This document shows, piece after piece, positions 8,097-45,211 of a stretch of 64,000 nucleotides of DNA. The stretch is from Halococcus sediminicola. GTDB lineage: Archaea; Halobacteriota; Halobacteria; Halobacteriales; Halococcaceae. Below the pieces are notes generated by a model. The model was not told the DNA's origin. It ran no database searches and saw only the letters and a program-made list of their open reading frames with translations. The stretch lies in NCBI RefSeq assembly GCF_000755245.1, contig NZ_BBMP01000006.1, positions 1 to 64,000 on the forward strand. The letters run 5' to 3'. The translations under genes were made by a program, and so were the position numbers. Each line of letters opens with the position of its first letter. Within the stretch, counting starts at the first letter, position 1.

Positions 8097-8489
8097 TCAG
8101 AGACGCTCGACGTCGGCGGTGCGCTCGCTGTCGACGTTGCCGGTGTTTTCCGTCCCGGCGGGTTCGAACAGTAGCACTTCGGTCTCGCCGTCGGCGACGG
8201 GTCTGTGCTCGACGCCGCGCGGAACGACGACGAACTCGCCCGGGTCGAGGGCGACGGTTTCCTCGTCGAGTTCGATGTCGAGGTGCCCGTTGAGCACCAA
8301 AAACAGCTCGTCGGCGTCGTCGTGACGGTGCCGGACGAACTCTCCCTCCAGTTTGGCGAGTTTGACGTGCTGACCGTTCAACTCACCGACGAGCTTCGGC
8401 GACCACTGCTCGTCGAACTGGGCGAACGCTTCGGCAAGACTGACTTTCCCGTGGTTCATCGTGGAAGCGTGTTTGGCCTCGGTACTCAT
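8097..8489 (-). CDS. cupin-domain protein
   Basis: 130 aa with a single cupin domain: metal-ligand motif VRHRHDDADELFLVLNG, then VPRGVEHRPVADGETEVLLFEP. Small monodomain cupins of this kind often bind a metal and have no assigned substrate. This is the last gene with chromosomal base composition; the mobile element begins just beyond its start. A TATA-like box for this gene lies around 8511-8520 on the minus strand. Confidence 0.9.
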   Translation of the reverse strand: MSTEAKHASTMNHGKVSLAEAFAQFDEQWSPKLVGELNGQHVKLAKLEGEFVRHRHDDADELFLVLNGHLDIELDEETVALDPGEFVVVPRGVEHRPVADGETEVLLFEPAGTENTGNVDSERTADVERL

Positions 8490-9061: not shown

Positions 9062-10084
9062 ATGCCGGAGACGAAATACGAGGTGTTGCTGGATGCCGAT
9101 AGATGGGAGGACAGGGTGTTCAAGAACAAGCACGACTGCATCAACGACTGGCTTCGAAACAAGGACTCAACCAACAAATCAGCCTCACGCCGCACCCTGA
9201 ACTCATACAGTCGGACATCGGTCAAGTTCTTCCACGAGTTCTCTCCCGACGTGCATCCAGCGGATGTGACCGTAGGTGATGTCGAGGAGTACGTCTTGGA
9301 TCTGAATGACCGGGACTCAGCTCAGAATACGAAACGCCGGTACGTTGAGTCATTATCAGCGTTCTATACGTGGGCGATGAAGCGGCCTCGGTTCGAAGAG
9401 ATCACCGGGAACCCGGCAGCCGTCGTTTTGGAAGAGCTGCCGAAAAAGAAGATGCCACGTCCGAACACTGCGACATGGGAGAACGGGAAGCGTATCATCC
9501 AGAAAATCCCTGATCCACGTGACAAGGCCGCTGCTGTATTGATGGCGAAGACAGGTGCGCGTGTGCAGGAAGTTCTCGACTTGACTGAGGAGGACCTGCT
9601 GCTGGAAGGTGGATACATCCGGTTCAGAGATCGGAAAGGCGGGACGACCACCGTGAATCCGGTTGATGATGAGACCGTGCAGGCGCTTCGACGGGTGATG
9701 GCTGTGAGCAGTGATGACTCGGAGTACCTGTTTACCTCACTCCGCGGTGGACGTGTCGATAGAGAGCGTATCCGTCGGCAGGTACGGCGGGCAGCCGTGC
9801 GCGCAGATGTGATGGACGACATAGACGAGCGGCGCTGGCATCACAAGTTCACACCGCACTACTACCGGACGATCTTCACGAGTCTGATGCGGAACAACGG
9901 GATGCCGGATCACTTCACCCGGTATCTGCGTGGTGACGGCGACAAGGAGACGATGGACCTGTACACGAAGATTCCGCAGGAACAGGTGCGGGACGAGTAC
10001 CTTCAGCACATCAAAACCCTGGACCTGTACGGAAATGCAGGAGGTGAGAATCAGGTATTGGCGAGCATGAAATCAACGAAATGA
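9062..10084 (+). CDS. tyrosine recombinase/integrase (XerC/D-like)
   Basis: 340 aa. The N-terminal SAM-like core-binding domain (about 35-120) is followed by the catalytic domain with all key residues: R167 in TGARVQE, K192 in RKGG, H266-x-x-R269 in HYYR and the nucleophile Y301 in MDLYTKI. It should integrate and excise the element. It is complete and in an operon with the small partner upstream and a 35-aa gene downstream (ATGA overlap). Its place at the boundary marks the left end of the element. Confidence 0.95.
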   Translation: MPETKYEVLLDADRWEDRVFKNKHDCINDWLRNKDSTNKSASRRTLNSYSRTSVKFFHEFSPDVHPADVTVGDVEEYVLDLNDRDSAQNTKRRYVESLSAFYTWAMKRPRFEEITGNPAAVVLEELPKKKMPRPNTATWENGKRIIQKIPDPRDKAAAVLMAKTGARVQEVLDLTEEDLLLEGGYIRFRDRKGGTTTVNPVDDETVQALRRVMAVSSDDSEYLFTSLRGGRVDRERIRRQVRRAAVRADVMDDIDERRWHHKFTPHYYRTIFTSLMRNNGMPDHFTRYLRGDGDKETMDLYTKIPQEQVRDEYLQHIKTLDLYGNAGGENQVLASMKSTK

Positions 10085-23179: not shown

Positions 23180-23314
23180 GCCGCGAGGCATACAAAATAC
23201 TCCAATCTTTCAGCATCTCTGCCCAAAAAGCGGGTAACGCTTACCATGCAGGTCCTCATGGGGCTGATATGAACGCCGAAATTCGGACGGTGACCACACT
23301 TGGTTGATAACGAG

Positions 23315-25015
23315 ATGGCTCTCACTTTCTCGGTCCGAAATAATCCCGGTGTCTATGCTCTTCTATTGGGTTCTGGTATATCTACTGAGGCAGGGGTTCC
23401 TACAGGCTGGGGTGTCGTTAAAGATCTAATTCGGAAGCTGGCCGAGATAGAGGGTGAGGAGATTGAAACCGATCCAGAGGAATGGTATCAAGACACCTAC
23501 AATCAAGAACCCGAATACGATGATTTGATTGAGCAGGTTGCACCTTCTAAGCCAGATCGCCAGTCTCTATTAGAGAAGTACTTCGAACCTACTTCCGAAG
23601 AGCGAGAACAGGACATTAAGACTCCATCAGAAGCCCACAGGAGTATTGCATGGTTAATGGATGAAGGGTACATCAGCATAGTTGTCACCACAAACTTTGA
23701 TCAGTTATTGGAACAAGCTCTATCTGAACGCGGGATTACGCCAGTAGTTATCAGTAGCGAATCGGATGCTAAAGGAGCAGCTCCTTTATCTCATCAAGAA
23801 GCAGTTATCCTGAAGGTCAATGGCGACTACAAAGAGACGAATATCAAGAACATACCTGAAGAGTTAGAGAACTACTCTGCACCAATCGAAGAAAAGCTGA
23901 ATAAGATGTTTGATGAATATGGGCTTATCGTCTGTGGTTGGTCTGGAGATTGGGATATCGCATTACGAGAAGCGATGCTTAGGTGTGAAAGAAGGCGGTA
24001 TGCAACATACTGGGCCTACCATGGCAGTTTAGAAGATAGCGCGGATGAACTCATAGCTCACCGAGATGGAACTCCCATTCAGATTACTGGTGCCGGTGAC
24101 TTCTTTTCGGAGTTAAAAGAGAACGTAGAGGCGCTTGAAGGCTCAGAGTCGGGAGCCCCGTTGACTCGAGAAGTGGCCAGAGAAAGGGTCAAGCGATACA
24201 TGACCCGTGAAGAACGGAAAATCGACTTGGCAGATCTGCTTCATGACGAAACTGAAGAGGTCAGAAGTCGGGTTTTCAACGAGGATAAGTTCCCTCTCGA
24301 TATTGATGTGAATGATGATAACTATGACGAGAGACTGTCGATGTATGAAAGCGGTGTCAGAACGTTAGTAGTGGCGACATCTACCTGCGCATACTGGGGT
24401 CCAGAGGTTACCAATTCCGCTTTGCAACCATTGGCTGAGCAGGTGAGACGATTAGGTTCCACAGGTAGTCCCGATGGAACATACAACCATGTCTGGGATT
24501 ACCTGAGGATGTACCCTGCTATGCTTGTACTCTACGGAACAGGGATATCAAGCCTCAAATCCGGGAACTGGGAACTTATGCATGAGCTCCTAATTGAGAC
24601 TGAAATCGATGCACACGACTTCATCGAGCAATCTGCCGGTGGGCTGCTAAATCCGTGGACGGTTGGAAGCGGTATCAATAGAGGGCGGGGAGGCAACCGG
24701 TTTCTCAGGAAGCGTATGGAGAAATATTTCCGTGAACCTCTTCGGGAGTTCTTACCCGATGGCAAGGAATATACCAACTTATTTCATGAATACGAGGCTT
24801 TCGCAGACCTGATTCTACTGGATAGGCTTGGGGACGACTCACTCGATAATGTACAATTGAAAGGAACGCTATACTATGACGCCACCTTGGAGCAGCTCCG
24901 TGATGAACTTGATTCACAGAGCGAAAACTGGGGGCCAATCGATGCCGGGTTTTTTGATGGCTCCGTTGATCGAGCAAACTTCTTACTGGATGAACTGAAA
25001 GACATGGGATGGTAA
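23315..25015 (+). CDS. SIR2-family defence-type protein
   Basis: 566 aa from the ATG at 23315. The SIR2 domain occupies about 1-270: LLLGSGISTEAGVPTGWG (NAD-binding Gly-rich loop), TTNFDQLLE (catalytic Asn127) and LKVNGDYKETNI, where the usual HGD histidine is Asn169. The rest (280-566) is a helical region of unknown type. Similar SIR2 proteins deplete NAD during anti-virus defence. The missing His could mean altered chemistry or a natural subfamily variant. It is followed by a membrane-anchored protein that may act with it. Confidence 0.85.
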   Translation: MALTFSVRNNPGVYALLLGSGISTEAGVPTGWGVVKDLIRKLAEIEGEEIETDPEEWYQDTYNQEPEYDDLIEQVAPSKPDRQSLLEKYFEPTSEEREQDIKTPSEAHRSIAWLMDEGYISIVVTTNFDQLLEQALSERGITPVVISSESDAKGAAPLSHQEAVILKVNGDYKETNIKNIPEELENYSAPIEEKLNKMFDEYGLIVCGWSGDWDIALREAMLRCERRRYATYWAYHGSLEDSADELIAHRDGTPIQITGAGDFFSELKENVEALEGSESGAPLTREVARERVKRYMTREERKIDLADLLHDETEEVRSRVFNEDKFPLDIDVNDDNYDERLSMYESGVRTLVVATSTCAYWGPEVTNSALQPLAEQVRRLGSTGSPDGTYNHVWDYLRMYPAMLVLYGTGISSLKSGNWELMHELLIETEIDAHDFIEQSAGGLLNPWTVGSGINRGRGGNRFLRKRMEKYFREPLREFLPDGKEYTNLFHEYEAFADLILLDRLGDDSLDNVQLKGTLYYDATLEQLRDELDSQSENWGPIDAGFFDGSVDRANFLLDELKDMGW

Positions 25016-38245: not shown

Positions 38246-38608
38246 TTATATGACGGAGGATTCGGCTTCTACGAGTGGGTCATCGTACTGTACTGGTTCT
38301 CGGTTCTGTGTTTTGGCGAGGAGCTGTTCTGCGGCGTCGGCGAGTTCTTGCCCGTCTTCCGTTAGTTCGTAGATCTTCTTTCTTCCATCAGTATCGGACT
38401 CGACTACGTCGTGCTCTTCGAACCGTTTCAGCAGCTTCAGCGTATGGCTATACGTCGAGTTGATCTTATACGCGATGGCTTGGCCGTAGTTGTCCTTACT
38501 GGGTTCGCGTAGCGTCCTTAGGATTTTAGCTGGTTTTTCATTGAGCAGTAGATCCATTATTGCGTCATCTGCTGCTTGTTGGTCTGGTCTGGAATCATAT
38601 TCGGACAT
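38246..38608 (-). CDS. winged-helix repressor (MarR/PadR-like)
   Basis: 120 aa. A wHTH fold is seen from about 17 to 95: MDLLLNEKPAKILRTLRE, HTLKLLKRFEEHDVVESD (recognition helix) and KKIYELTEDGQELA (wing). Small proteins of this kind control promoters of haloarchaeal viruses and plasmids. It is divergent from the restriction-modification gene; an operator-like palindrome sits between them and could let it control both. Confidence 0.8.
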   Translation of the reverse strand: MSEYDSRPDQQAADDAIMDLLLNEKPAKILRTLREPSKDNYGQAIAYKINSTYSHTLKLLKRFEEHDVVESDTDGRKKIYELTEDGQELADAAEQLLAKTQNREPVQYDDPLVEAESSVI

Positions 38609-38631
38609 ATTGGTTGTATGACCCTTAACTC

Positions 38632-38659
38632 TTTTAAAAGGTCACCACTGACCGGTGAC
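38632..38659. promoter_or_regulatory. TATA box with adjacent palindromic operator
   Basis: ttttaaaa at 38632-38639 is followed by the inverted repeat GTCACC (38641-38646) and GGTGAC (38654-38659). It lies 24-50 nt from the wHTH start and 80 nt before the restriction-modification start. The arrangement suggests autoregulation by the wHTH protein. Confidence 0.55.
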
Positions 38660-38737
38660 AAACCACTGGTAGTTGGGCGCATCATTGCACTCGGGACCAT
38701 CAAAGGAACTATGCCGCCGCTGTTGGTGGATGTGGCT

Positions 38738-41700
38738 ATGTCCGGATTGAGTTCGCTGGATCTCTCTGATGCCGAGCAAGACTTCATCCAGAACACTCTG
38801 AATGAGTACGCTGCGATCTACCGCGAAATCGACTTCGAGGATAGAGCGGAATCAGATGTTGTACCGCGGCTCATCAACCACCTATTCATCGACGTACTCG
38901 GTCACAGCGAGAGCGACTACGAGCAGGAAAACGACTGGAACGACATCATCATTAGAGATGACGATGGGAATGCGGTGATCGTGGTTGAGGCAAAGCGCCG
39001 CTCCGTCGACGTAGAAAACGGGATTGACCAAGGATTCGAGTATGCTGGTGACAGAGGCTATGTGGAGTATTTCGTCTCAACTAATATTGATGAGTTCCTT
39101 TTGTACAAGACCTGTAGCGAAGATCATCCTGATGCGAAGAGTCACGATGGTTACACCGCTCGGAAGATAGCGGAGGTCAACTTCGAAGGAATGGTTAACG
39201 CTGATAGTGGGCGTGCCCTTCTCAGCGCGGTCGATATCGAGGGGTACCAGGATCTATTGGAGTTGAATAAGTTGAGGCGTGAGGAGGTCGCTAAGCTCAG
39301 TAAGTTCAACGAGTTTGATATTCCGTCTACTCAGATCCAGAGTGTGGGTTCGGATGAGGGATTCAACAATCTGCTGGATGCTCTTCAGAAGTGTATCAAC
39401 GAGTATTTCATGGTCTATACGTTGAAGCGGTTCGACGAATATCAGCGCCTGTATTCTGAGGTTAAGAAAGAAAGAGATCAACTACAGTCGGAGCTTGTGA
39501 CGGTACGGGATAGTGGTGGTGAGGATACGGAGGAGGAGGCGGAGATCCGTCGGCAGCTTTCCGAGGTTGAGGAAAGGTTGGAGCCGTACCGGCGGTTTCA
39601 CGATGATTACGAGGTCTGGAAGCAGCTGTCGAATCGGGTGGGCGAGAACGAAGATGAGAATAAGCGTGTCTTCTGCCGTGAGTCGGTCTATACACAGATC
39701 AATAAGATTCTGTTTATCCGGATAGCTGAGGATAAGGGGTTGTTGAATCAGATGGTGAGTGACGGCGGTGTGAGGGAGTTCTTCGATTTCTGGGAGAATT
39801 ACGCCAAGTATACTGGTTCGGCGAAGGATTATCGGGACTTGTTCGATGCGGCGTGTGATGAGATGATGGAGCTGTATGAGCACCTGTATTCTGGCAGTAT
39901 CTTTGATTGGGAGCTACGGGATGGTTCCGCGCTCAATGAGATCTTCCAGAAGACGTTCTGGCATCTGAATCATTACGATTTCTCAGGTGTTGACCGGGAT
40001 GTTCTCGGTCATCTGTATGAACGGCATTTGCCGAAGGAGGAGCGTCAGCGACTGGGTGAGTTCTATACGCCGACAGAAGTGGTCAACTTCATTCTGGACC
40101 GCTTAGAGTACACTCCGGATCAGCCGATTGAGCATAAAGATATTCTTGATCCGGCGACTGGTTCAGGGACGTTTCTGGTTCAGGCTGCTAATCGGTTGGT
40201 TGAGCGGCTTGATCGGAAGGGTGTGCCGCCGAAGCGTGCTTTAGAGATCGTTCAGGACCGGCTTCATGGCCTTGATTTGAATCCGTTCGCTGTCAATATC
40301 GCGCAGATCAACCTTGTCTTCCAGATTATCGATCTGTACCGAGAGGTGAAGGAGCAAGATCCGGATTACACGATTCAGAATTTCAAGATCTATCAGACGG
40401 ATTCGTTGAAGCGAGGTGTTGATTCGAAGCTGTCCGGGTTTTACTCGGATACGATTGCGAGGAAGTACCAGGAGGATAAGGAGAAGGCGGATGCGATCAA
40501 AAACGGTGAATATGATATTGTCGTCGGAAACCCTCCGTACGTCTATTACAATGACATTCCGAAGGGTCAGCGCGACTCTTATAACGATGCTTTCCCGAAT
40601 GCAGCTCACCGTCAGTATGACATCTTGATCTTGTTCATCGATAGTGTTCGAGACTGGTTGAAACCCGGTGGTAAGGTCAGTTATATTACTTCTAACAAAT
40701 TCACAGGTGCTCAGTATGGTGAGAAGCTTCGGAAGACCATGCCTCGCTATGTATTTGTTGACGAATTCGTTGATTTCGCGGATGCTGGAGTGTTCGAGGA
40801 CGCGGTTAATTATCCATGTGTGTTTGTGATGCAGAGGAAAACTGACGAGGAAGAGAGGAATACAGAGGAATATAGTTTCCCGTTTGTGGAAGTCAAGGAG
40901 GGAATGGATGATGTTTCTGACCTTCTTTCACACATCAAGTCAAATATCGGGGAGGAGCATGAAGATGAGTTTGTTAATGCTTTCCCTGTCTCTTCAAATA
41001 GTCTGGATGAACAATCTTGGAAATTCATCCCAGATGACGATAGTAGGATACTAGAACAGATCAATAGCGACGTTTCGCATAATCGTACGTTTGATGACGT
41101 TTGTAAGCGTATTGAAACCGGGTTGCAACCAGGATACAATCCTGCCTATCTTGTGACTGATGAAGAAGTCAAGGAAAAGGATCTGGAGGAAGAGATTATC
41201 TATCCAGTGCTTGAGGGAGAAGAGATTAGACGCTGGAGAGACCCTATTCATTCTAAGAAGGTTATATACGCTCACAACGATTTGGACATAGATAGATTTC
41301 CGAACATCAAGGAGCATCTTAGTGAGTACAGAGAGGATTTAGAGAAACGAACTACAATTGATTCCTGGTGGGAACTTCGGCGTGCCCGTCCGGGAGCTAT
41401 AACGGATGAGCGGAAAATCATCACTCCGGATATCGCCTACTACAGCAATTTTACATTTGTCAGTGGTAGGACTCATCTTCTGAACACGATTTATTATGCC
41501 GTGCCTGATGAAATGGATGATTACTCGTTCTTAGTTGGCATTGGGAACAGCATTGTAATGCAGTTCTATATGCGAATGGAAGCACCGACATACCGCGGTT
41601 CTTATCTCCGATATTATGGCAATGTGTGGGGTTCGCTTCCACTTCCAAGAGACTCCGAGCTAGAGGAATCAATATCATCGAAAACAGAGGAGATTGTCAA

Positions 41701-42211
41701 CTTTATTGAGGATTTGAAAGATAGCGATCAGATACTCCAGAATCCAGCTCATATCTATGAGGAGTTCAGTGTAGATTCCTTTCAATTGCCTGAACATCCT
41801 GCTGTTGAGTCTTATGATTTGAAGAATGTAGAGGTTGAGGACGCGGTTGTTGATGGAAATCGCGTTACTTTTCAGAATCTTTCCTCGGAAATCAGGTTCT
41901 TTGATGAGAATGAGGATTATCAAGCCCTTCTAATGGAGATTCTAGAGATGAAAAATCTGGAATTGGCTGACGAGATCAAGAAAATACGTCTACCTTCGGA
42001 TAAGTCGATGGTTCCAGAATTGCTTGATAGACTTCGTACGGTGCGAGACGAGTTGGAGGAGGCTGGTGAGGAGATGCAGGAGCTTCAGGATGAATTGGAC
42101 GAGTTGGTGCTGGACCTGTACGGGTTTGAGGATGAGGAGAGGGAGTTGATTCGTGAGCGTACGGATACGCCGAGTAATCCGTTGGATACTCGGATGGTGA
42201 TTACGGAGTAG
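38738..42211 (+). CDS. type IIG-like restriction-modification protein (nuclease plus N6-adenine methylase)
   Basis: 1157 aa from the ATG at 38738 (MSGLSSLDLSDAEQDF). Domains: an N-terminal PD-(D/E)xK nuclease (NDIIIRDDDGNAVIVVEAKR, about 66-85); a helical spacer with coiled coil (about 240-285); a methylase core with SAM motif DPATGSGTFL (about 470) and catalytic NPPY (about 597); and a C-terminal specificity region ending in a coiled coil. The enzyme would cut and methylate DNA in one chain. Starts further upstream at 38576 or 38711 are possible but less natural. Defence cargo. Confidence 0.88.
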   Translation: MSGLSSLDLSDAEQDFIQNTLNEYAAIYREIDFEDRAESDVVPRLINHLFIDVLGHSESDYEQENDWNDIIIRDDDGNAVIVVEAKRRSVDVENGIDQGFEYAGDRGYVEYFVSTNIDEFLLYKTCSEDHPDAKSHDGYTARKIAEVNFEGMVNADSGRALLSAVDIEGYQDLLELNKLRREEVAKLSKFNEFDIPSTQIQSVGSDEGFNNLLDALQKCINEYFMVYTLKRFDEYQRLYSEVKKERDQLQSELVTVRDSGGEDTEEEAEIRRQLSEVEERLEPYRRFHDDYEVWKQLSNRVGENEDENKRVFCRESVYTQINKILFIRIAEDKGLLNQMVSDGGVREFFDFWENYAKYTGSAKDYRDLFDAACDEMMELYEHLYSGSIFDWELRDGSALNEIFQKTFWHLNHYDFSGVDRDVLGHLYERHLPKEERQRLGEFYTPTEVVNFILDRLEYTPDQPIEHKDILDPATGSGTFLVQAANRLVERLDRKGVPPKRALEIVQDRLHGLDLNPFAVNIAQINLVFQIIDLYREVKEQDPDYTIQNFKIYQTDSLKRGVDSKLSGFYSDTIARKYQEDKEKADAIKNGEYDIVVGNPPYVYYNDIPKGQRDSYNDAFPNAAHRQYDILILFIDSVRDWLKPGGKVSYITSNKFTGAQYGEKLRKTMPRYVFVDEFVDFADAGVFEDAVNYPCVFVMQRKTDEEERNTEEYSFPFVEVKEGMDDVSDLLSHIKSNIGEEHEDEFVNAFPVSSNSLDEQSWKFIPDDDSRILEQINSDVSHNRTFDDVCKRIETGLQPGYNPAYLVTDEEVKEKDLEEEIIYPVLEGEEIRRWRDPIHSKKVIYAHNDLDIDRFPNIKEHLSEYREDLEKRTTIDSWWELRRARPGAITDERKIITPDIAYYSNFTFVSGRTHLLNTIYYAVPDEMDDYSFLVGIGNSIVMQFYMRMEAPTYRGSYLRYYGNVWGSLPLPRDSELEESISSKTEEIVNFIEDLKDSDQILQNPAHIYEEFSVDSFQLPEHPAVESYDLKNVEVEDAVVDGNRVTFQNLSSEIRFFDENEDYQALLMEILEMKNLELADEIKKIRLPSDKSMVPELLDRLRTVRDELEEAGEEMQELQDELDELVLDLYGFEDEERELIRERTDTPSNPLDTRMVITE

Positions 42212-42442: not shown

Positions 42443-43732
<1,290 letters not shown>

Positions 43733-44011
43733 AATCTAATATATGCAATTATATTTTTATATCTAGGGGTGATTCATTCCCTATCTTATTCACTTCGACA
43801 ACGAAGGAATGAACTTCTCACCACAAATTTGATAAGATAAATGGCTGATGTCTTCTCCGGCCTAAAGACCGGGCCTCTTTGCGCGATATTGGTGAAATGC
43901 CGATGTTGTACAGGAATTCATCGAATCCAGTTTTGCTTCTTAGAGCTGGGATGGATCTCAACTATTCTCTCCAATACCAATATAAATGTCATTTTCGCAT
44001 TGTTTCTCATA

Positions 44012-44230
44012 ATGACTAATGACACTGAATTCTCTACGGCTCGCGGCCGCAAACTGCTAAAATCAGAGACGAACAAGCGGGTGACTGAGGAAGCCGCTGA
44101 CAAGAACGCTAAGTTGATGCAGGAGTATGGCACTGAGATCGCGGAACGGGCTATTGAGATTGCGGAGCATGCTGGTCGGAAGACGGTTCGCGGCGGCGAT
44201 GTAAAGGAAGCTGTCCGGCAGCTACGCTAA
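44012..44230 (+). CDS. single-fold archaeal histone-like protein
   Basis: 72 aa from the ATG at 44012, with a TATA box (aatataaatg, about 43977) at leaderless spacing. After a 20-residue N-terminal tail the histone fold follows: VTEEAADKNAKLMQEYGTEI, ERAIEIAEHAGRKTVRGGDV and KEAVRQLR. Asp and Arg-Thr pairs of the L1/L2 loops are present. Haloarchaeal chromosomal histones are usually two fused folds of about 140 aa, so a single fold is unusual and suggests an element-borne protein that packs or disguises its DNA. Confidence 0.8.
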   Translation: MTNDTEFSTARGRKLLKSETNKRVTEEAADKNAKLMQEYGTEIAERAIEIAEHAGRKTVRGGDVKEAVRQLR

Positions 44231-44485
44231 GTCTGTTGGCGATACTGCATCAGTCGGAGCTCGTCATTGTAACTGTCCCACGCAGGAGCTTTGATTGTAC
44301 CTCGTTCTTCGGCTGGTGCGGCGTCAAATTGGCCCTGGACACTGGCCTAAAACTGTCCGTTTCGCCGGATATGGTGATGGGATATGCGAAAGTCGGCCCA
44401 TCTATGAGCCTACGTCCGGTGACGTGAGGTCTTCAAGGGTGATCTCTACGCCCGTCCTCGGCTATGACGTGAAACTGGCCGGTTT
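44231..44485. other. non-coding leader of the tRNA-like cluster
   Basis: No coding frame is convincing. It holds a copy of a direct repeat, GCCTACGTCCGGTGACGT at 44408-44425, repeated with two changes at 44704-44721 between the first two tRNA-like units. A local stem GGCC-ctggacact-GGCC (about 44332-44347) is seen. The region may be transcribed with the tRNA-like sequences. Confidence 0.4.
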
Positions 44486-44637
44486 GCGCTGTTGGTCCAG
44501 CGGTCAACGATACTGGGTGCTAACCGAGCATGTGGCAATACAGGTGTAACTCCTGAGCCCGCAAGTCCAGAAATGGAGCAGTAGGTGGCTATAGCTGCAA
44601 AGACCCGGTGACCCGCGTTCGAATCGCGGACGGCGCA
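44486..44637 (+). tRNA. interrupted tRNA-like sequence 1
   Basis: An acceptor stem GCGCTGT (44486-44492) pairs with ACGGCGC (44630-44636), one G-U pair. A canonical T arm, CCGCG-TTCGAAT-CGCGG, precedes the 3' strand. The D-arm-like GTCCAGCGGTCAAC follows T8-G9. CTGGG (44513-44517) can pair with CCCGG near 44604, so an intervening sequence of about 75 nt may sit in the anticodon loop. A standard anticodon with U33 is not evident. It may be an intron-bearing, remodelled or decayed tRNA. Amino acid not assigned. Confidence 0.5.
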
Positions 44638-44793
44638 TTAGCTGGATATGGTTTCCTGTTCAGGAAATCGATCAGGTGGGCTTTGTACCGGCCTTCTGAC
44701 GTGGCCTACGTCCGGCGACATGCCCTATCAGGCATCTATATCTCTGTGAGTTTTGGAGGCTGGTAGCTCACTCCAAGAAAAAACCGGCCTTTT

Positions 44794-44937
44794 GCGGCCT
44801 TAGTTTAGCACTCGTGTAGGTCAGGAGTAGCCAGCTAATTACTGGTGAAGGCTGATAGAGAAGGCGATACTAACGTGGTGTTGCTGTGAGCGTATAACGC
44901 CCTAAGAGTAACCTCGGTTCGAATCCGAGAGGCCGCT
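44794..44937 (+). tRNA. interrupted tRNA-like sequence 2
   Basis: Acceptor stem GCGGCCT (44794-44800) pairs perfectly with AGGCCGC (44930-44936). The T arm CTCGG-TTCGAAT-CCGAG is canonical. T8-A9 and a D-arm-like GTTTAGC follow the acceptor strand, but the D and anticodon arms are not normal and about 68 nt more than a usual tRNA lie inside. Intron, insertion or decay cannot be told apart by eye. Confidence 0.5.
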
Positions 44938-45032
44938 GTTTCCAGCCAGTTAATGGTTCAGCAGCTGCGGTGGGGAAACCCGTAAACTCCGCGGAGATCC
45001 CGTTAGCGTCGTTCCCTCTGTCTGGCTGGTTT

Positions 45033-45211
45033 GCCCTGTTAGCTCAATGGGAGAGCGCACGCGGAAAGTCCGCGACATGACGTCAATCTGGAGCCGGAGG
45101 ACACGTGTAATTGCGTGATAAACGGTCTGCAAGGATCAATGCGGTGCAGTCGTGTGATGCGTGGAGCGGTTTGTAGCCGTACTATGCTGGGTTCGAGTCC
45201 CAGACAGGGCT
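45033..45211 (+). tRNA. interrupted tRNA-like sequence 3
   Basis: Acceptor stem GCCCTGT (45033-45039) pairs perfectly with ACAGGGC (45204-45210). The D arm GCTC-AATGGGA-GAGC and the T arm CTGGG-TTCGAGT-CCCAG are textbook. CACGC after the D arm can pair with GCGTG at 45113 or 45159, leaving a large insertion; a perfect stem GCGGA-aag-TCCGC (about 45061-45073) lies inside it. About 100 nt exceed a normal tRNA. The identity is not clear. Confidence 0.55.

Follow-up and report, generated by a model that had tools for sequence, protein, structure and literature searches.

What kind of RNA is encoded by a gene that keeps the ends of a tRNA and fills its middle with a large insertion? Three such units, U1, U2 and U3, lie side by side on the plus strand between positions 44486 and 45211 of the window (the whole 64,000-nucleotide stretch of haloarchaeal DNA analysed here). 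An earlier note, made from the letters alone, had described them as interrupted tRNAs on an element, with 7-bp acceptor stems, textbook T arms and a size excess of about 76, 68 and 103 nt. The coordinates and anatomy it gave hold, and we find an excess of about 70–107 nt. On the evidence below, we slightly favor reading the locus as a small set of noncoding RNA genes with a tRNA shape, a family in which a structured domain replaces the anticodon-loop region.

Three tRNA-like units and their setting

U1 (44486–44637) comprises 151 nt (44486–44636) followed by A73 at 44637, U2 (44794–44937) comprises 143 nt (44794–44936) plus U73, and U3 (45033–45211) comprises 178 nt (45033–45210) plus U73. Each unit has a 7-bp acceptor stem (GCGCTGT/ACGGCGC in U1, 44486–44492/44630–44636; GCGGCCT/AGGCCGC in U2; GCCCTGT/ACAGGGC in U3) and a T arm (44613–44629, 44913–44929 and 45187–45203, respectively) with a 5-bp stem and the loop TTCGAAT or TTCGAGT, and retains T8, R9, G10, Y11–13, A14, R15 and one discriminator base. 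A search for this signature on both strands retrieved exactly U1–U3 in the window, and nothing in 40 randomised windows.

U3 has a perfect D arm (45042–45056), a 5-bp stem at the anticodon-stem position (CACGC/GCGTG, 45058–45062/45159–45163), an insertion hairpin (45093–45126; GCCG [GAGGA] CACG (TGTAATTG) CGTG [ATAAA] CGGT) and, directly 5' of the T arm, an extra arm GCGG-TTTGTAG-CCGT (45166–45180) with U33, UGU and A37. U1 has a 5-bp anticodon-stem-like helix (CTGGG/CCCGG, 44513–44517/44604–44608) and a GAAA-capped hairpin within its insertion (44566–44577). The tRNA core is weakest in U2, where the D loop lacks GG; its insertion, with a hairpin CCAG-CTAATTA-CTGG (44831–44845) enclosed by TCAG/CTGA, is weakly similar to that of U3 (shuffle P about 0.02–0.04). 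No normal tRNA is nested inside a unit, down to 66 nt. Default ARAGORN makes no tRNA call for the units, and the Rfam tRNA model at its gathering threshold recognises none of them, including the related unit V1 described below (15 bits, against a cut-off of 29). If the family is real, the failure of default tRNA tools on U1–U3 would be a warning that such genes entirely escape default annotation.

Near 8.5 kb of the window GC content, at 65% before that point, drops to about 50%. Two direct copies of the 17-bp sequence TGGCCTCGGTACTCATA, one at 8474 and the other at contig position 72671, delimit about 64.2 kb; the copy at 8474 adjoins a tyrosine integrase gene (9062–10084, plus strand). Because this fall in GC coincides with a direct repeat beside an integrase, the units lie within an integrated mobile element of about 64 kb. 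The repeat is likely its att repeat, which is located away from the units and is unrelated to them, and the earlier suggestion that they shield integration sites is thereby left unsupported. Other genes of the element encode HerA-type ATPases, a Toprim primase-like protein and DNA methylases; possible defence cargo includes an Eco57I-like restriction-methylase (38576–42211), a TnpB gene (42443–43732) and a SIR2-domain protein (23300–25015). A DNA-level search around the units retrieved no similar phage or plasmid record.

Directly upstream of the units is an archaeal single-histone-fold gene (44012–44230, plus strand; 72 aa; PF00808, E 2e-11), preceded by a TATAAA-like box at 43981, which is a possible source of read-through transcription into them. 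In the noncoding stretch of about 1 kb from the histone gene to the next gene (44231–45211, plus strand), the ORFs contained on both strands stay at or below 84 aa, and a 117-aa minus-strand ORF overlaps only the final 30 bases of the stretch; this stretch is probably a precursor transcript, the extent of which we infer. Its spacers hold plus-strand hairpins before U1 (SE1, 44362–44422; TCGCCGGA-UAUGG ... CCUACG-UCCGGUGA, resembling an 11-nt tetraloop receptor) and before U2 (SE2, 44641–44716; GCTGGA-UAUGG ... CCUACG-UCCGGC).

Related units in a second element

A covariance model of the acceptor and T arm (R1), built from U1–U3 alone, was used to search 392 genomes of the order. Its best non-self match (E 2e-6) is a minus-strand unit in genome G372, V1 (G372:C7:2579202–2579387, equivalent to L121:9202–9387; 185 nt plus U73), which adjoins a further unit, V2 (159 nt plus C73). 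Between an integrase-like gene and V1 lie about 670 nt of noncoding DNA (L121:9388–10053), which has a TTTAAA box close to its beginning. The element that carries V1 and V2 also encodes the closest relative (68%) of the window element's HerA, about 33 kb from these units, as well as three further proteins common to both elements (34–43% identity); neither HerA nor the other three shared genes adjoin the units. The G372 element, found in another genus, is distantly related to that of the window, and the two differ in unit number and order.

The R1 E-value alone proves nothing: some ordinary tRNAs score similarly, with tRNA-Gly genes that have truncated copies ahead of them reaching 4e-6. In many Halobacteriales genomes, one or more modules of about 53–67 nt stand in tandem before ordinary tRNA-Gly or tRNA-Glu genes; each module repeats the 5' acceptor strand of the tRNA at its start and apparently folds into an acceptor-like stem plus a hairpin (L095:1442–1631, L096, L097:1377–1631, L099:1501–1637, L101, L102, L107, L112 and L117). 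By appearance, these modules are widespread and conserved in layout.

It is the sequence of the G372 units, not the R1 score, that convinces us. The match between U3 and V1 runs along their length, including the insertion (GGAGCCGGA...AAACGG) and GTGGAGCGGTTTGTAGCCG before the T arm, and the similarity of the insertions is far above chance (none of 500 shuffles was as good). When the two are aligned, each of the 32 pairs in the model can form in U3 and in V1 alike, compared with 30–45% for slid-partner controls. Six of the 32 differ at both of their bases. Three of these six belong to the acceptor; the other three lie in helices of the inserted region, with one in the stem at the anticodon-stem position and two in the insertion hairpin (helix 5), whose inner stem is CACG/CGTG in U3 and CTGG/CCAG in V1. 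As there are only two elements, this covariation comes from one pair of sequences, and as the scored structure was partly drawn from those same two sequences, it constitutes support rather than a blind test. Judged by this alignment, U3 and V1 are homologous and share an insertion with covarying helices, and the modelled pairing indicates that the insertion itself is under structural constraint. Homology of the U1 and V2 insertions to the other insertions is not demonstrable.

Taken together, U1–U3 and V1/V2 look like a conserved RNA family. The acceptor and T-arm signature (7-bp acceptor, TTCRANY loop, U8, A14) is present in all five units. As expected if the tRNA core forms, four of the five have GG in the D loop, and the 15–48 pair is Levitt-compatible in four (chance 0.016). 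The D arm is kept in three, being degraded in U1 and U2. The stem at the anticodon-stem position, which encloses the insertion, has 5 bp in U1, U3 and V1, and 3–4 bp in V2. A normally spaced anticodon arm (7-nt loop with U33) is absent from U1, U2 and V2 (the last read by eye), and only U3 and V1 have a plausible, displaced one. The earlier claim that anticodon loops with U33 are lacking is therefore right for U1 and U2, and overlooked the extra arm of U3. In U3 and V1 this arm, which follows the anticodon-position stem, is either a long variable arm or a displaced Thr anticodon arm. The fold energies of single units are no more than slightly low, with z between –0.9 and –2.2.

The spacers offer further common features. 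A hairpin GCYGGA-UAYGG...CCUACG-UCCGGY is common to the spacers before U1, U2 and V2; with at least five further closing pairs and adjoining units, it occurs at these two loci only (392 genomes searched by pattern, and IMG/VR). Its CCUACG/UAYGG element, present in all three spacers, compares with CCUAAG/UAUGG in the 11-nt GAAA-tetraloop receptor, of which a UACGG form (a U-to-C change) has been studied (PMC11381326). GNRA-capped hairpins (GAAA, GUAA and GUGA loops) occur in U1, V2 and spacer 3, and the combination of receptor-like motif and GNRA loops is suggestive of tertiary contacts.

No third case emerged from R1 on the 392 genomes of the order, or from a second model, R2, applied to the G372 family (170 genomes) and to the class (212 genomes). 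The weak matches inspected elsewhere proved to be ordinary or intron-bearing tRNAs; many have truncated tRNA 5' ends in tandem or lie close to another tRNA. Likewise, neither the first 50 kb of the halovirus HGTV-1 nor 57 viral and genomic loci with HerA relatives match the units, and DNA or protein homology searches of phages, plasmids and IMG/VR yielded no homologs carrying them.

Introns, ornate RNAs or tRNA-shaped RNAs

The earlier note had compared the insertions to the haloarchaeal tRNA introns at position 37/38. We scored every contiguous single excision of the units for both tRNA quality and a bulge-helix-bulge (BHB) motif, and scanned for the motif alone. Three controls (an eMet tRNA from haloarchaea, an insertion-bearing Glu tRNA, and the tRNA-Ala of HGTV-1, whose annotation includes an intron) gave textbook hBHBh' motifs with 11, 10 and 9 flanking pairs. 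The five units gave 0–6 flanking pairs, not above shuffles, and no hBHBh', the strict form of which is reportedly required by the Haloferax endonuclease (PMC7714728). No one excision yields both a good tRNA and splice sites. Motifs formed between units, or with spacers, are weak candidates only. ARAGORN proved too permissive on excised sequences, and its intron mode was discarded because it assigned unrelated isotypes (Ser, His, Leu, Leu) to homologous units. U1–U3 are not ordinary interrupted tRNAs; what stands of the earlier proposal is real tRNA-like units with unusual insertions, on a mobile element, and conserved in that U3 and V1 share the insertion and covarying helices. A relative of the host does carry a tRNA-Glu(TTC) with a short anticodon-loop insertion flanked by a perfect hBHBh' (L091:1501–1608).

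Given the Thr-UGU-like arm of U3 and a U73 that fits Thr, the main rival for U3 and V1 is a tRNA-Thr processed by a non-BHB route: the units would be real tRNA genes with introns removed in a non-standard way, U3 and V1 being tRNA-Thr(UGU) genes whose D arm and anticodon arm are separated by an insertion of about 107–112 nt. The arm GCGG-TTTGTAG-CCGY, with its U33, UGU and A37, is among the best-conserved parts of U3 and V1 and, with A43 assigned to the stem, leaves a V loop of 5 nt; U73, G1–C72 and C2–G71 match the Thr tRNAs of the host. However, no hBHBh' occurs at consistent positions or exceeds chance in any unit, the best aligned splice candidate has no inner helix and would yield a product about 8 bases too long, and position 27–43 is still mismatched; moreover, U1, U2 and V2 have no comparable anticodon arm, and the U3/V1 insertion is structurally constrained. 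We consider this explanation unlikely.

Alternatively, the units may together make up a single large ornate RNA, each unit forming one domain and tetraloop/receptor contacts joining them; such an RNA would be the archaeal equivalent of GOLLD and ROOL from phages. Both elements have about 1 kb of noncoding sequence, the receptor-like spacer motif is conserved and GNRA loops accompany it, and GOLLD and ROOL adjoin tRNA islands, with tRNAs possibly sitting in GOLLD linkers (PMC12286853). Yet known RNA families gave no match and, for large RNAs of this kind, Rfam covariance models give none even at E 10, the number and order of units are not kept between the elements, and there is no global excess of fold stability, making this reading distinctly improbable. 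That the units are decaying pseudogenes of an ancestral viral tRNA array, as the degraded D arms of U1 and U2 and the missing anticodons of U1, U2 and V2 might suggest, is already disfavored and highly improbable, as every one of the five units has intact acceptor and T stems around a middle that is not intact, and U3 and V1 differ by double compensatory changes.

We therefore return to a family of tRNA-shaped noncoding RNAs. Each would keep the parts read by end-processing enzymes (acceptor stem, T arm, usually the D arm, and a single discriminator base), and would have exchanged the anticodon-loop region for a structured domain of roughly 75–115 nt. The units would probably be transcribed jointly, as a precursor of about 1 kb whose spacers before U1 and U2, like that before V2, hold the tetraloop-receptor-like hairpins; host RNase P and tRNase Z would cut the tRNA ends, CCA would be added, and the products would be stable RNAs unable to decode normally. 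As to function, our first guess from the sequence, itself a doubtful one, is that they act as decoys or mimics of tRNA, with tRNA-binding host or defence proteins as targets; a scaffold RNA would be the next guess. The fuller proposal – an archaeal mobile-element RNA class in which tandem tRNA bodies with a conserved, structured effector domain in place of the anticodon loop, arising from a roughly 1-kb precursor that tetraloop-receptor hairpins organise, are used against such proteins – is tentative, and we hold it somewhat short of even.

Comparison with known systems

In total length and tRNA ends, the units resemble BHB-intron tRNAs (haloarchaeal tRNA-Trp, eMet and Gln, and HGTV-1 tRNA-Ala, which is also located on a mobile element), but these have a clear anticodon loop and a strict hBHBh', and the units have neither. 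The HGTV-1 tRNA array is likewise a cluster of tRNA genes on haloarchaeal mobile DNA, there a virus; in the 50 kb read, its tRNAs are 71–87 nt long, with one ordinary intron tRNA of 103 nt. With the GOLLD and ROOL phage RNAs the units share the character of a large structured noncoding RNA, a mobile element, an association with tRNA genes and candidate tertiary-contact motifs, but there is no match in sequence or structure, and in the units it is the tRNA-like bodies that carry the insertion. Like tmRNA, they have tRNA-like ends with other sequence in place of the anticodon arm, whereas ARAGORN finds no tmRNA and the D arm is kept in three of five. By analogy, the nearest known kind would be GOLLD/ROOL in setting and tmRNA in design, though tests of membership failed for both.

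Viral tRNA-like RNAs are known mainly from plants and, to our knowledge, large ornate phage RNAs only from bacteria. If our reading is correct, the units would represent a new class of RNA in tractable archaeal hosts – conserved, tandem, non-decoding, tRNA-shaped and borne by mobile elements – and would allow a clear-cut test of tRNA mimicry as a means of counter-defence in archaea.
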